Assembly (NCBI GenBank): GCA_947492745.1
Contig: CANLOE010000001.1
Span: 62,001 to 126,000 of the forward strand
Length of the DNA: 64,000 bases
DNA from: an uncultured Cyclobacteriaceae bacterium
GTDB lineage: Bacteria > Bacteroidota > Bacteroidia > Cytophagales > Cyclobacteriaceae
Direction of reading: 5' to 3'
The notes beneath the pieces are model-generated. The model was not told where the DNA came from. It did not search any database and saw nothing but the letters and a program-made list of their open reading frames with translations. The translations under genes were made by a program, and so were the position numbers. Shown piece by piece: positions 35,428 through 42,044 of the stretch. Position 1 is the stretch's first letter, and the number at the start of each line of letters is the position of its first letter.

Positions 35428-36814
35428 ACTCCCCAGAAATAGGACCGTTCGCTAAGGTTACATTTAAATGATAACTTAGTAGAGAACGATGAAAAAGACA
35501 AGAAGAAAGTTCACGAACGAAGTCAAGGCCAAAGTGGCCATTGAAGCTATCAAAGAACGCCATACGCTCAACCGGCTGAGAAACTCGAAATCCACCCTAC
35601 GCAGATCGCATAATGGAAAAAAGAGCTTCCTGGCAAGGCCGCGGGAGTGTTCGATGGGAAGAACAGACCCAGGGAAGAATCCATTGACCTAGACCGACTG
35701 TATTCTAAAATTGGCCAACTGGAGGTCGAGCGTGATTTTCTAAAAAAAGCTTAAGGAAAACAGGTCTGTTGTAATGTTGCGCTCCATGGTCGATTCACGG
35801 GATTGTGCCCTCTCAGTCCGTAAACAGTGTCATCTGTTGGGTATCCACAGGAGCGGTGCCTATTATGTCCACAAGCAGGAAAGCGCCTTCACTGATGCTC
35901 ATGGACAAGGTGGACAGGTGGATGCCGGAAGAACCTACCCTGGGGGTGATAGGCATGGCCGACCTGTTCAGGGATGAAGATATAGTTGTGAACCCCAAGC
36001 GGGCCGGGTATCCGGTGCGCTTGATGGGACTGATGGCCATCTACCCGAAAAAGAACCTCTCTGCATTGGGCGGGGCAAAATATACCCACCCCTATTTATT
36101 GAGGGGATTGCCGATAAATAGGCCCAATCAGGTGTGGGCCATTGATATTACCTACATCCATGCGCAAAGGGTTCATGTACCTGACCGTCATTATTGATGT
36201 TTACAGCCGTAAGATAGTCGTTGGGGGCCGGGCAGTTCCTTGTCGAACGAGTGTGGCCTGGAAGTGCCTGAACGGGGGATCGAAGAATATGGCAGGCCGA
36301 CATCGTCAATTCCGATCAAGGGGCCCGGTTTACGTGCAAAGAATGGGTATCAGGACTGAAAGGGGCCCATATCAAAATCAGTATGGATGGGAAAGGAAGG
36401 GCCATCGATAATATTTATATAGAGCGTTTCCGGAGAACATTAAACCCAGAATGTTCGTTGGAACTTCGTCATGAGGACTTAAATGGCAATAAATCAAGGC
36501 GTTTTATTGGATTCAGCGTAGCACCGCTACGGTTAATTCAAAAGACGCATTCATTTACTGATTTGAAGCCAGTTAAGTCCGGAATAGATTTTCTAATGGA
36601 CATTCTGGGTTAAAGCAACGGTATGTATATTTAAACCCAGCGGAGGACAGACTGGAGCTGTTCAAGGGGATACAACAATTTATGGACAGATATAATAACA
36701 GGAGACATCAGGGAATCGGTAAGGTAACCCCTGATCACAAATACCAAAATGCTGCTTGATACTAATGAAAAAAAAACTTAAACCGGCGAAAAACCGGCCC
36801 TAACATTGGGGAGT
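35428..36814 (+). pseudogene. Decayed IS3-family insertion sequence
   Basis: Ends are imperfect inverted repeats starting ACTCCCCA. OrfA (from 35489) begins MKKTRRKFTNEVKAKVAIEA and then shifts frame; downstream pieces give LYSKIGQLEVERDFLKKK. The OrfB pieces follow: RKQCHLLGIHRSGAYY, NRPNQVWAIDITYI (first catalytic D), FMYLTVIIDVYSRKIV, a stretch with VNSDQGAQFT in shifted frame (second D), and DGKGRAIDNIYIERFRRTL (catalytic E). The last exon-like piece is RYVYLNPAEDRLELF..YNNRRHQGI. Several frameshifts plus insertion of TNA element B4 make it inactive. Flanks are AAT on the left and GCT on the right, so no duplication remains; the right flank is the tail of a lost fic gene. Confidence 0.9.
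36444..36610 (-). mobile_element. TNA element B4 (167 bp) inserted in the IS3 transposase, duplication TAA
   Basis: Begins ACCCAGAATGTTCGTTGG, ends CATTCTGGGT. TAA at 36441-36443 and 36611-36613. Deleting the element plus one TAA rejoins the transposase reading frame (FRRTL-K-QRYVYLNP), giving an unambiguous empty site. Confidence 0.96.
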
Positions 36815-37408: not shown

Positions 37409-37437
37409 GTGATATGGGATAAAATGTCCCATATCAC
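37409..37437. promoter_or_regulatory. Perfect inverted repeat upstream of fic
   Basis: GTGATATGGGA and TCCCATATCAC form an 11-bp perfect palindrome with a 7-nt loop, 46 bp before the fic start. There is no T-run, so an operator or an mRNA leader hairpin is more likely than a terminator. Confidence 0.55.
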
Positions 37438-37443
37438 CCTAAC

Positions 37444-37472
37444 GTGTACCAATTTTTGTATATTTGGTACAC
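37444..37472 (+). promoter_or_regulatory. fic promoter with overlapping palindromic operator
   Basis: TATATTTG at 37459-37466 fits the Bacteroidetes -7 box TAnnTTTG. It is enclosed by the 9-bp inverted half-sites GTGTACCAA (37444-37452) and TTGGTACAC (37464-37472). The layout suggests a repressor covering the promoter; the Fic protein's own winged-helix domain is a candidate, implying autoregulation. Confidence 0.55.
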
Positions 37473-37483
37473 AACCAGTAAAT

Positions 37484-38569
37484 ATGGGACAAAAGGCACC
37501 TTATCGACCATTGGAGAAATTACCCCCGAAAATAGAGTGGACCGAAACCATGGCCATATTGAAAGCAGATGCCAAGGCGGCCAGTGCTCTGGGCGAACTC
37601 AAGGGTATAGCAAAGACGATACCGAATCAGAAAATGCTGGTCAATGCCATCGTACTACAAGAGGCCAAAGACAGCTCCGAAATAGAAAATATCATCACCA
37701 CACAAGATGAACTCTATAAAGCCATTTCCACCAGCCAAACCCAGTCCCCGGCCATAAAAGAAGTGGTCAACTATAGAAAAGCCATTTTTAAAGGGTACGA
37801 TATCATCAAAGAAAATGGATTTATCAGATTGTCCGATGTATTGGAGCTGCAAGCATCAATTTTAGAGAACAATGCAGGCATCAGGCAATTGCCCGGGACT
37901 GTCCTGAAAAATGATACTACCGGCGAGGTAGTGTACACTCCTCCTCAGCGTAAGGATGAAATACTTGAGTTGATGAGCAACTTTCTGGAACATTTCAATG
38001 CTCAAAACACATCAGTGTCACCTTTGATCAATCTTGCCGTACTGCATTACCAATTCGAGAGCATCCATCCATTCTATGATGGAAATGGGAGAACAGGAAG
38101 GATATTGAACATTCTTTACCTCATCATAAATGGACTTATAGATGTTCCCATCCTGTACTTAAGTTCGTACATCATATCCCATAAAAAGGAATACTATCAA
38201 TTGCTCAATGCCGTCAATCATAAAAATGAGTGGGAAAAGTGGATACGCTACATGCTCAAGGGAATTGAGGTAACGGCCAAGAACACTATTCAAAAAATTG
38301 ATGATGTCAATCAGTTATTGAACGATACAATACAATTGACCAAAGAAAAAGCCCCGAAGACCTATAGTAAAGAGCTGGTTGAACTGTTGTTCGAGCAGCC
38401 TTATTCCAAAATAGACCATGTAGTCAATCGATTGGAAGTGGAGCGGAAGGCAGCCTCCAGGTACCTAAAGCAAATGGAAAAAATAGGGGTTTTGACAAGC
38501 CAAAAAGTCGGAAGGGAGACCATCTACATTAACAGTAAGCTGATTACGGTATTGAAAAAGCACAAATAG
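37484..38569 (+). CDS. Fic-domain protein with C-terminal winged helix
   Basis: 361 residues from the ATG of MGQKAPYRPLEKLPP; the longer frame runs back across the promoter. The catalytic motif HPFYDGNGRTGR (195-206) is intact, so it should transfer AMP or another nucleotide moiety to a target protein. SSEIEN (64-69) fits the self-inhibitory motif (S/T)xxxE(G/N) of class II Fic proteins, located N-terminal to the Fic core. The C-terminal part (about 300-360, SKIDHVVNRLEVERKAASRYLKQMEKIGVL) is a winged-helix DNA-binding domain. No separate antitoxin is needed in this class. It lies between the two long direct repeats, the second of which starts inside its last codons. Confidence 0.92.
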   Translation: MGQKAPYRPLEKLPPKIEWTETMAILKADAKAASALGELKGIAKTIPNQKMLVNAIVLQEAKDSSEIENIITTQDELYKAISTSQTQSPAIKEVVNYRKAIFKGYDIIKENGFIRLSDVLELQASILENNAGIRQLPGTVLKNDTTGEVVYTPPQRKDEILELMSNFLEHFNAQNTSVSPLINLAVLHYQFESIHPFYDGNGRTGRILNILYLIINGLIDVPILYLSSYIISHKKEYYQLLNAVNHKNEWEKWIRYMLKGIEVTAKNTIQKIDDVNQLLNDTIQLTKEKAPKTYSKELVELLFEQPYSKIDHVVNRLEVERKAASRYLKQMEKIGVLTSQKVGRETIYINSKLITVLKKHK

Positions 38570-38926: not shown

Positions 38927-39273
38927 AATAGCTCTTCTAAACAGCTATGAGTACAGTATAACACTTATAAAATACTGCTTAACATTTGTTCATTTAGATC
39001 CAGTATCTGGCAAAGGACTATTAGTTTTGAAGTGACATCGAAAATAGCAGACATCATGTACACTTCATCTAAAATCTTACCAATATTTTTAGGCCGAACC
39101 TCCAGTATTTATAATATAGCCTTTTAAAGAAGTGACCAGTCAGAGACACTCAAACTGATGCGTGTTGAGTAATTTATCAATGCAAGATTTTAATTGGTTA
39201 ACAGTCATAGTTGTTTTTAGAACCTTACAACGGAGGAATAGCTTTGCTCCTTGTTTTGGCGAACGGGCAGCTA
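38927..39273. other. AT-rich intergenic stretch in the accessory block
   Basis: About 350 bp between direct repeat 2 and the anti-sigma stop. No gene, terminator or known repeat seen. Confidence 0.4.
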
Positions 39274-40344
39274 CTATTCATCATTTTTAAGGTGTTCGAT
39301 ACTATCGTTCTGAGTTCCATTTGCAACCCTTTTTGTGATTTTAACTTTTGAGAAATTGGGTTCGGTGTTTTTTATTTCAAAGCTTGAAATTTCAACTTCT
39401 TGTATTTCATCGCAGTGATTTCTAGAGACTTCCCAAGAACAAAAGAAAGGGGTGGAATCCACATGCTTCCAAATGTAATCGTTTGTTGCCCAATTTGAGC
39501 CATATATATTCATGTACTCATCTTTCAATGACACATCTCCTTTAAGTACATTGAATAGATATGGAATTTTCTCAATGCCAAGCATCATGAATAAGTCTCC
39601 ATACCAGATCCATCGAGGATTTTCTTGTGGTTTATACCTTCTAGATGTGTAGACACCAGATTGAGTAGTAGTCCAATTCAAGGACTTGTTGAATCTATCC
39701 AACTCTGAAACCGTGCAGATTCTGGATGTTCTAAATTGATAACGATTAAATATTTTACCATCCGCTCTTCTCTTTTTAACGATGCATAATATTGGGCCTT
39801 TAGAAGACAGTTTGATGAGTACAGCAATTGAGAAGATGACAGGGCTGAGTATAAAAATGGTCAAGGATGAGGTGATGATATCCAACCCCCTTTTCCAAAT
39901 TGGTGCTGCTGTAATCTTCGAAAAATAGCTTTTACTAGTGACAACTTTAAACCGATTGTTTACATGAATATGTTTGGTGTTTTTAAAAAGCTCATTGTCT
40001 TCTTGCAACCCAACGGCTTTTCTAAGACCAGCTTCCAAGTCTTCCACAAGATTAGTATTTGGTCGTGTTGTATTGCCTTTCTTAATCATGAATAATTTTG
40101 TCGCTTCAATAAATTTCCTTTCATCCTCATTTATCATGTTTAAGACGTCTTCTCCACAAGTAATTTCCTCATGGTTCTTTTGCTCTACAATTCCGGCTAG
40201 GACATCTTGGCAAAAAGGACAGGTATCTATATGGGACCTTAGTTCTTGGCGATTATCTTCATCAAAAGCAAACTTTACCAGAGCACTGAAATCTGGGCAT
40301 TCGGGCTGCGGACTTTTACGGTTAAATATTGTAATGTTCTTCAT
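39274..40344 (-). CDS. Zinc-finger anti-sigma fused to a sugar-phosphotransferase-like membrane domain
   Basis: 356 residues. N terminus: C16 and the HxxxCxxC finger HIDTCPFC (H38, C42, C45), as in zinc-binding anti-sigma factors. After a soluble linker (50-145) comes KRGLDIITSSLTIFILSPVI, a hydrophobic helix (about 151-180). SSKGPILCIVKKRRADGKIFNRYQFRT follows, matching the membrane anchor and N-terminal core of monotopic polyprenyl-phosphate sugar-1-P transferases (PF02397). The NVLKGDVSL motif (265-273) is kept. The catalytic Asp-Glu just before it is replaced by Glu-Lys (E258, K259), and the following GPRP motif is absent, so catalysis is doubtful. It overlaps the sigma gene by 4 bp. A membrane-bound sigma regulator is inferred. 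Confidence 0.82.
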   Translation of the reverse strand: MKNITIFNRKSPQPECPDFSALVKFAFDEDNRQELRSHIDTCPFCQDVLAGIVEQKNHEEITCGEDVLNMINEDERKFIEATKLFMIKKGNTTRPNTNLVEDLEAGLRKAVGLQEDNELFKNTKHIHVNNRFKVVTSKSYFSKITAAPIWKRGLDIITSSLTIFILSPVIFSIAVLIKLSSKGPILCIVKKRRADGKIFNRYQFRTSRICTVSELDRFNKSLNWTTTQSGVYTSRRYKPQENPRWIWYGDLFMMLGIEKIPYLFNVLKGDVSLKDEYMNIYGSNWATNDYIWKHVDSTPFFCSWEVSRNHCDEIQEVEISSFEIKNTEPNFSKVKITKRVANGTQNDSIEHLKNDE

Positions 40345-40946
40345 CCTACAAACACTTTGATTATGTCCTCTTTAGAGCTTTTATTCTCTTTTATGATTTT
40401 TCTAGCATCTCTTAGGTAAGCCCTAACTGTTGATAATGTTTTACCCATATCAACAGCTATTTCGGCACACTTGCTACCCTTTGCTACTTCTACAAGAGTA
40501 TAAGCTTGGTTATGAGTCAACGTCTTTGGTCTAATCTCTTCAGTCAAGTATTGATATAGTCTTTCATGTGCTTCCTCCATAGCCAGTTCGTAATTATTCG
40601 AGAAAATTTGCTGATGGACGACTTTAAAGGCCGAATCGTTATAGGGTAAGAACAAATGCTGACTCCCTAGTCTATATTTTTTCATTATATCATAACTAGC
40701 TCTAGTAACTGAAGTACAAAGATAATTCTGGAGGTTTTTGAAAGGCATTTGAGGTGGTTTTCTAATACGTATCAGAACGGTATTGGTAGCCTCATTTGCC
40801 AAATGGCGATTCTTTACTATTCTATAAGCAATAGCTGTAAGATACTCGTATATTCCAGTTTCAAGGAAACTTCTATAGTAGTATTCATTTTTAGTTGAGT
40901 AGAATCGATTAAGCAATTCTGTCATTTTATCAAATTTTCCAGTCAT
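40341..40946 (-). CDS. ECF-type RNA polymerase sigma factor
   Basis: 201 residues. Region 2-like helices lie at about 30-95 (YLTAIAYRIVKNRHLANEATNTVLIRIRK..NLQNYLCTSVTRASYDIMKKYR). Region 4 lies at about 140-190, with the helix-turn-helix KCAEIAVDMGKTLSTVRAYLRDARKII. The sequence is divergent from common ECF groups, but the two-domain size and the overlap with a zinc-finger anti-sigma gene support the call. It is expected to redirect RNA polymerase when freed from the downstream partner. Its own promoter lies in the AT-rich gap up to 41140, shared with the divergent HEPN gene. Confidence 0.82.
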   Translation of the reverse strand: MTGKFDKMTELLNRFYSTKNEYYYRSFLETGIYEYLTAIAYRIVKNRHLANEATNTVLIRIRKPPQMPFKNLQNYLCTSVTRASYDIMKKYRLGSQHLFLPYNDSAFKVVHQQIFSNNYELAMEEAHERLYQYLTEEIRPKTLTHNQAYTLVEVAKGSKCAEIAVDMGKTLSTVRAYLRDARKIIKENKSSKEDIIKVFVG

Positions 40947-41155
40947 TTGTTAGAGTATTTAATAATATAGACGGGGAAAAGAAAAAAGTAGGGGTGGATC
41001 TACGGGGATTCCTGTTAATTATGTCATAAAATGCTGTTCAGTTATGGTTAAAGCGGTTTTATTTATTACATATGCTAATAGTGGTATTATTGTTTAAAAC
41101 ATACACTTATAATGAGTTGGGGAGGTTTTCAGCTCCTTAATTGAAAATCAAAAAG

Positions 41156-41842
41156 ATGATTAATTATTATAAACTCGACAAAATAATCGAGCGGAACAGT
41201 ATTCTGACAGATAATTACAATAAAGGCGAAAAAGATGCATTTCTCAATTTTCTTGATAGTATGCAGGAAGCGATGGATTTATGCTATTTCATCCTTGAGA
41301 GTAAGGTAAAAGCAGCCATGAGGCACTAAGCAAGGAAAAATTATGTGATTAATATAGTATCTGCGCTTGAGCAATTTTTTAAGCAAGTGATAAAGTATCA
41401 CTTGGCTGAATATGACAATAATTTGAAAGAACTCCTGAGAGAAAAAATCACACTTTGGGAAGCATCAAAGTTATTTTCAGAAGAAAAAGTAAAGCTTAGA
41501 GATATTGTTGCTAGCTTTTATTCCTTTCAAAGTTTGGAAGAAATTAACCGAGTTATGTCAATTATTTTGGGTCAAGATTTCATCCGCCTGATTGGAAGCC
41601 GTGACACCAAAGATTATATTCCAAGGAATAAAATGACAAAATCGTTTGTCTTGGACAGAGACGATCCGGAATGGAAAAGTGACCTAAGCGAACTATTTGA
41701 CCTCAGACATAATTTCGTACATCATACAAGCAAAAAAAGAAAATTGTCTCAAAAGCAGTTGAATCGTGTGATAAATCCAGTGTTATTCGTAATCATGACG
41801 ATGTTGCATTCCTTACAATATAAAAACTGGGATAAAGTGTAG
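41156..41842 (+). pseudogene. HEPN-domain gene interrupted by an in-frame TAA
   Basis: Two frames read as one protein of about 228 residues, broken by a TAA at 41327-41329 with no frameshift (..KVKAAMRH-stop-ARKNYVINIVSALEQFF..). The C-terminal part has ELFDLRHNFVHHTSKK, an R-x4-H motif (RHNFVH) of HEPN RNases, set in an alpha-helical protein of the RiboL-PSP-HEPN type. The second frame alone could start at the GTG at 41345, which would give a 165-residue protein that keeps the HEPN motif. Either it is a recent pseudogene, or a shortened form is made. No antitoxin partner is recognised next to it. Confidence 0.7.
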
Positions 41843-42044
41843 TGGATTTGGGGCTGTGTTGGGGTTTTGAACCAAAATATTTCCCTCTTTTCAGAGTCAC
41901 TCACAGAGGACTCTGAGGCTTTTGTTGTTTGAAATGCAATATTGTCTAAATATGCCTTTCCAAAAACTTCAACCGTTTTGATATACAGTGAGCTTCTGAA
42001 AATCAAACAAAGTGAGAAATGGAGTGAGTTTGAGAGTGAGATTA

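Follow-up and report, generated by a model that had tools for sequence, protein, structure and literature searches.

In the genome of an uncultured Cyclobacteriaceae bacterium (7.1 Mb in 458 contigs), we analysed a 64 000-nucleotide stretch of one contig, hereafter the window, in which a divergent ECF-type sigma gene (P0002) is directly followed by a putative anti-sigma gene (P0001). The ORF coordinates gave exactly the 4-bp overlap between the two genes that the first-pass annotation of this DNA had reported, and no other minus-strand ORF of at least 90 aa adjoins the pair (Table 1). The pair sits between a Fic-family gene (37409–38569) and a RiboL-PSP-HEPN gene (41345–41842), and the GC content at 39–42 kb of the window is 34–36%, compared with 39% and 43% in the flanking kilobases. 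This AT-rich islet (39001–42000) could be a mobile or defence islet. At 35805–36197, the final stretch of a frame resembled an IS-type transposase by eye and had no Pfam match. Promoter and terminator scans gave scores below those of shuffled sequences.

Table 1. Features of the sigma gene and its partner, in positions of the window
Feature	Position	Strand	Description or basis
Putative anti-sigma gene P0001	39274..40344	-	356 aa; zinc motif and predicted dead monotopic phosphoglycosyl transferase (PGT)
ECF-type sigma gene P0002, divergent	40341..40946	-	201 aa; TIGR02985 match, own-genome ECF profile, AF2 fold
P0001/P0002 4-base overlap ATGA	40341..40344	-	
Sigma region 2, P0002 residues 2-94	40665..40943	-	AF2 model
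Sigma region 4, P0002 residues 121-187	40386..40586	-	AF2 model; Sigma70_r4_2 below cut-off
Putative zinc site C16-x21-H38-x3-C42-x2-C45 of P0001	40210..40299	-	Motif
PF02397 match, P0001 residues 151-273	39526..39894	-	Pfam profile
Re-entrant membrane helix, P0001 residues 149-180	39805..39900	-	K151-R152, D155-x12-P168, S167-P168
E258-K259 replacing catalytic Asp-Glu dyad, P0001	39568..39573	-	Alignment A3
K274-D275-E276-Y277 replacing G[NP]RP, P0001	39514..39525	-	Alignment A3

P0002 matched TIGR02985 with an E-value of 3.2e-9 and 37.2 bits against a curated cut-off of 126.4, and the Pfam models for sigma regions 2, 3 and 4 all scored it below cut-off (19.7 bits against 25.7 for Sigma70_r4_2). 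A profile of same-genome ECFs, for which 26 ECFs of this genome match at an E-value of 1e-4, gave it 27.5 bits with residues 33–187 as the best stretch. The AF2 model was built from alignment A5, which holds 30 ECFs from viral and Dyadobacter contigs (26 of the 37 viral ECFs plus four others), and consists of two helical domains corresponding to regions 2 and 4, region 3 being absent. Confidence was high for the blocks of residues 1–90 (pLDDT 91–96, except two at 83 and 77) and weaker for those of region 4 (51–73). The solved structures ranking first against this model were sigma factors, mostly ECF (sigma32 at rank 4), and included sigma/anti-sigma complexes such as SigW-RsiW; the best E-value was 1.7e-3, none was under 1e-3, and the input alignment was itself made of ECFs. 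We concluded that P0002 is a real but divergent ECF. No close relative was found in 98 relatives, 390 family genomes and 390 order genomes, which are overlapping draws that each count the own genome: at an E-value of 1e-6 the family genomes returned only P0002 itself, and at 1e-5 the order genomes returned two matches, both ordinary ECFs. The best sigma-like matches elsewhere (L038–L042, L255 and L256) are ordinary ECFs; judged by eye, a FecR-like gene comes after six of the seven.

Class I zinc anti-sigmas (ASDI / ZAS) include RsiW, RsrA and ChrR, and P0001 shares with them an N-terminal H-x3-C-x2-C and a place directly downstream of an ECF sigma gene. The HxxxCxxC motif that had been noted in the partner of the sigma was found as H38-IDT-C42-PF-C45, with C16 upstream, and among the 32 window ORFs examined (at least 150 aa, largely non-overlapping) only P0001 carries such a motif within its first 60 residues. 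The class is defined by Hx3Cx2C across helices 2 and 3 in the available text of PMC7406223, and the low-confidence model of P0001 places H38 in a helix of residues 29–41, C42 between helices and C45 in a helix of residues 43–55; the AF2 model is poor for the zinc part and for residues 278–316. The Pfam search of both halves of the protein, proposed in the first-pass annotation, gave a split result, in which PF02397 matched and zf-HC2 matched neither P0001 nor, at an E-value of 0.01, anything in its own genome. The NCBIfam RsrA model aligned to residues 27–48 with an E-value of 0.029 and 14.5 bits (cut-off 62.5). We also used a home-made zinc anti-sigma profile of 19 Cytophagales domains carrying the motif in the tested frame, taken from 30 loci (L157–L186), which scored 16.1 bits on residues 1–75 (hhalign 87.6%); since its members had been picked by this very motif, the score shows the fit of the surrounding helix more than it provides independent proof. 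In the shuffle control, in which 1897 of 2000 shuffles were scored, the best reached 13.0 bits and the next 7.3.

There is a fair case that the N-terminus of P0001 is a zinc anti-sigma domain. That P0001 is instead some other zinc-finger membrane protein, which is co-translated with the sigma either fortuitously or because it is a target of the sigma, is decidedly unlikely: the unmatched zf-HC2 and the lack of an orthologous pair showing the linkage would suit it, but the order and position of the motif fit a zinc anti-sigma domain, the profile score lies above all of the scored shuffles, and the gene follows the sigma gene directly with translational overlap. Among Bacteroidetes ECFs, only 6% have a class I anti-sigma nearby according to the accessible part of PMC7406223. 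Several of the Cytophagales loci (L157–L160, L163 and L164) encode HxxxCxxC proteins of ∼260–280 aa with a membrane segment and HEAT-like C-terminal repeats by eye, which are probably another anti-sigma type.

The remainder of P0001 is homologous to monotopic PGTs. The PF02397 profile (positions 1–104 of 179) matched with 56.6 bits, its cut-off being 27, so that the claimed PF02397-like domain stands, and a whole-genome PF02397 family search recovered the locus at 57.9 bits. The best solved relatives by both sequence and fold were WbaP and PglC, and the model gave Z-scores of 12.9 and 10.3 with these two, the next unrelated structure reaching 3.3; this fold match is expected and not independent, because the model alignment was built from PGTs.

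We then compared P0001 with 47 proteins (alignment A3) to which it is 16–28% identical. These have less than 72% mutual identity and frames of at most 450 aa, and they are among the best 80 of 495 confirmed candidates, which were found with the patterns GDMS[LI]VGN and AG[IL]TGLWQ[VI] and are biased to intact sites, as is the conservation in A3. Asp and Glu at the dyad and GNRP behind it occur in 47 of the 47, where P0001 reads Glu-Lys and KDEY, as had been stated from the first reading; alignment A1 puts a one-residue gap at the G[PN]RP site of P0001, giving D-E-Y-M. In PglC, the active-site residues are K59, R88, D93, E94 and R111, of which K59, R88 and R111 orient the substrate (PMC12802240, as excerpted). 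The three substrate-orienting columns of A3 hold K, R and R in all relatives. The counterparts of the five residues in P0001 are Q203, M253, E258, K259 and E276 (Y in A1), for which we take the columns of K59 and R111 to be those indicated by motif, R88, D93 and E94 having been placed via the sequence-match range on the assumption that the tag offset stays at 4. In PglC, an Asp (D168/169; PMC12802240, same excerpt) pairs with the anchor Lys and holds the re-entrant helix; its counterpart is D in 47 of 47 relatives and S332 in P0001, the column being equated from position only.

The DE dyad and G[PN]RP were kept in all 142 distinct proteins related to P0001; the other set behind this count consists of 67 proteins from P0001 or PF02397 searches without the pattern bias, and both sets take in only proteins matching P0001 at an E-value of 1e-4. 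One HxxxCxxC occurred among the 142, inside the transferase, and none at an N-terminus. Homologues with an intact dyad therefore exist, yet they do not refute the first-pass reading of P0001, since none has the N-terminal zinc motif and their N-termini are of other kinds (receiver-like in those that Pfam can identify). Judged from its sequence, the PF02397 domain of P0001 is a pseudoenzyme. A further PF02397 protein of the same genome (L005, contig C179), which does not match P0001, has Asn-Glu (RINELPQ) at the dyad and keeps GPRP.

The membrane anchor has been retained. All eight conserved re-entrant-helix positions in residues 148–182 are kept (A3), and with the five active-site residues replaced, the proposed combination of lost catalytic residues and a kept anchor was supported. 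The Lys-Arg, D-x12-P and Ser-Pro motifs of P0001 are all present at PglC spacing; excerpts of PMC12802240 describe D-x12-P as a motif of the re-entrant helix, and those of PMC6133551 report that Lys7-Arg8 with Ser23-Pro24 of PglC enforces re-entrant topology with both ends cytoplasmic. In the model, helices of residues 149–165 and 167–180 are separated by a break before the Pro (pLDDT 96–97 in the blocks of residues 151–180), and hydropathy gave the re-entrant segment only, with no second membrane segment. The motifs and the helix-break-helix model agree with the re-entrant helix suggested at first pass and support its further suggestion that both domains face the cytoplasm, which we regard as probable. 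The evidence is strong that a dead, anchored PGT homologue overlaps an ECF gene.

Behind the anchor, P0001 breaks 55 of the 78 conserved positions over residues 183–345 (conserved meaning the same in at least 85% of the 47 relatives), while the worst A3 relative breaks 5 of about 76 and the mean is 1.9. Conserved positions kept amount to 6 of 14 in residues 183–210, 11 of 21 in 236–272 and 5 of 38 in 273–345, where 33 are changed. When neutral decay of an intact relative was simulated to 70%, 50% or 32% identity, none of the 300 runs in each case was stop-free, with means of 6, 10 and 13 stops, respectively; the simulation had a single starting gene (L079) and took no account of indels. The absence of stop-free runs together with the uneven loss argues that the protein remained of use at full length even as it gave up its catalytic surface. 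A decaying chimera, in which a broken transferase recombined with an anti-sigma fragment in the AT-rich islet, would fit the local drop in GC content, a very long branch in the PGT tree (see below) and the single occurrence of the gene, but the frame has stayed intact over 356 codons at such low identity to its relatives, the neutral runs always acquired stops, and the anchor is fully kept, which makes this origin very improbable.

Searches of 98 relatives and of 390 genomes from the family, 395 from the phylum and 173 from the class revealed no other zinc-PGT fusion; these draws overlap and each counts the own genome, and the E-value limit was 1e-16 in the family, phylum and class draws. No second fusion was found in genome contigs, viral contigs or plasmids by searches with P0001 and P0002 (for genome contigs, with P0001 alone and in A1), where single-protein scans of genome and viral contigs find close relatives only. 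The search of other genomes for the same fusion beside ECF genes, proposed at first pass, thus gave no second case in the sampled genomes, and the pair is so far a singleton, so that conservation of the pairing cannot be shown.

The nearest sequence relatives of P0001 are mostly Bacteroidota PGTs of 350–400 aa with GNRP, some with a recognised receiver domain. In a tree of 35 PGT domains, P0001 grouped with the receiver-type proteins (100/97), but its branch length of 10 is too great for finer placement; rows L005, L008 and L014 start too early in this tree, the bootstrap is unsettled, and P0001 has an odd letter make-up. The receiver-type relatives (L004/L258 in the own genome and most of L077–L156) are nearest by both score and tree and share similar spacing throughout, but they have an intact active site and, where recognised, receiver-like N-termini, whereas P0001 has neither. 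No receiver remnant was found in residues 50–147 of P0001; PPR-like designer proteins aligned to residues 78–129 with a best E-value of 4.7e-4, no single stretch passed, and the match was taken as chance. Loci L077–L156, L008–L021 and L043–L075 form a large, mostly Bacteroidota PGT group with receiver-like N-termini and GNRP replacing GPRP. PF00072 was matched at an E-value of 0.01 by only 7 of the 48 receiver-like members scanned, so many of the receivers may be degenerate. In the own genome, contig C170 encodes an intact receiver-like PGT with DE and GNRP (L258, 2780–4340), directly downstream of a separate receiver-like gene and followed by two genes that appeared glycosyltransferase-like by eye; this PGT is a possible partner or target of P0001.

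We consider it somewhat likelier true than false that P0001 is a zinc anti-sigma of class I which a dead monotopic PGT domain keeps at the cytoplasmic face, a reading in which the binding of the sigma, like the binding of zinc, the topology and the signal, is what we infer. P0002 and P0001 would form a bicistronic sigma/anti-sigma switch, where the N-terminal zinc domain would bind P0002 and keep the sigma from RNA polymerase, and the dead PGT domain, via its re-entrant helix, would tether the two proteins to the inner membrane on the cytoplasmic side. Many membrane anti-sigmas watch the periplasm. As nothing of P0001 is predicted to reach the periplasm, classic periplasmic site-1 proteolysis would have no obvious target, and the release trigger would most likely lie at the inner face, as a change in the contact of the pseudo-transferase with the membrane, a lipid or a partner protein. 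The intact transferase of the same genome would be a candidate partner, and the zinc site might supply a second, redox input. The main weakness of this reading is the single copy; the unmatched zf-HC2, the sigma scores below curated cut-offs, the change of the helix-holding Asp (D332S) and the poor model of the zinc part and residues 278–316 also count against it.

Two alternatives keep the anti-sigma core but assume another signal, and their odds therefore overlap with those of the reading above. RsrA is a soluble zinc anti-sigma that acts as a redox or metal switch, and the dead domain of P0001 may likewise be an anchor only, with the zinc site as the sensor. This is unlikely but deserves some weight, as the anchor is the best kept part of P0001, and in the available text of PMC7406223 zinc motifs are over-represented among soluble anti-sigmas and cytoplasmic ones are linked to redox sensing; but an anchor alone would have no need of the roughly 175 residues that have remained open behind the helix, and the same text, which argues against a soluble-only role, finds the motif in some 50% of the membrane-bound anti-sigmas of class I. 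The other alternative, suggested at first pass, is that polyprenyl phosphate or a nucleotide sugar can still bind to the dead domain at its former active site, the ligand freeing the sigma and reporting the glycan-priming pool. The front part of the fold and the membrane contact motifs are kept, as are about half of the conserved positions of residues 236–272, and the intact receiver-type PGT beside glycosyltransferase-like genes makes a glycan-priming pool likely in this genome, but the replacement of the five active-site residues and the changes in the last third weaken this proposal and leave it quite unlikely. As the basic residues that orient the substrate were lost along with the dyad, contact with the membrane or a partner was ranked above a ligand in the old pocket. 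Returning to the anchored anti-sigma, it is a tentative and rather doubtful extension that the dead PGT senses the state of polyprenyl phosphate or sugar precursors at the inner leaflet, or binds to a live transferase, and so ties the ECF regulon to envelope-glycan supply.

We know of no anti-sigma with a re-entrant helix on the cytoplasmic face, and a literature search gave none. In the open-licence literature, no anti-sigma combined with a sugar transferase or PGT was found described, which accords with the remark in the first-pass annotation that such a design was new to it. Known class I zinc anti-sigmas have a soluble sensor or a membrane-spanning helix with a periplasmic domain, whereas P0001 has a predicted dead PGT with a re-entrant helix. 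P0001 shares sequence homology, fold and re-entrant helix motifs with PglC and WbaP (PF02397) but, unlike them, lacks the catalytic dyad and substrate-orienting residues, carries an N-terminal zinc motif and is paired with a sigma. As an anti-sigma, it would be secured at the cytoplasmic face by a re-entrant helix, and it suggests a monotopic transferase fold that has been kept for something other than catalysis. If the extension to glycan supply is true, a glycan-priming enzyme became a transcription sensor acting from the cytoplasmic side. The pair offers a concrete, small and testable case of how cells could sense a shared lipid carrier.

RsgI of Clostridium thermocellum is a likeness in that it is an anti-sigma sensing carbohydrate-related signals, but it possesses a transmembrane helix, within which RseP cleaves it (PMC12203970, in excerpt), whereas P0001 has no predicted outside part. 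A UMP-sensing role is described for another PGT side domain in the available part of PMC10942596. In the EpsW-EpsZ pair of Myxococcus xanthus, a PGT is linked to a signalling domain in the form of a separate receiver protein, which activates a live PGT (PMC12802240, as excerpted), whereas the PGT of P0001 is predicted dead and linked to a sigma. The L258 locus of the own genome resembles the EpsW-EpsZ pair in make-up. Another PGT of the GNRP type (L257, 2064–3389, minus strand) is 441 aa long and has an intact dyad, but its N-terminal part looks unlike those of the receiver-like relatives.
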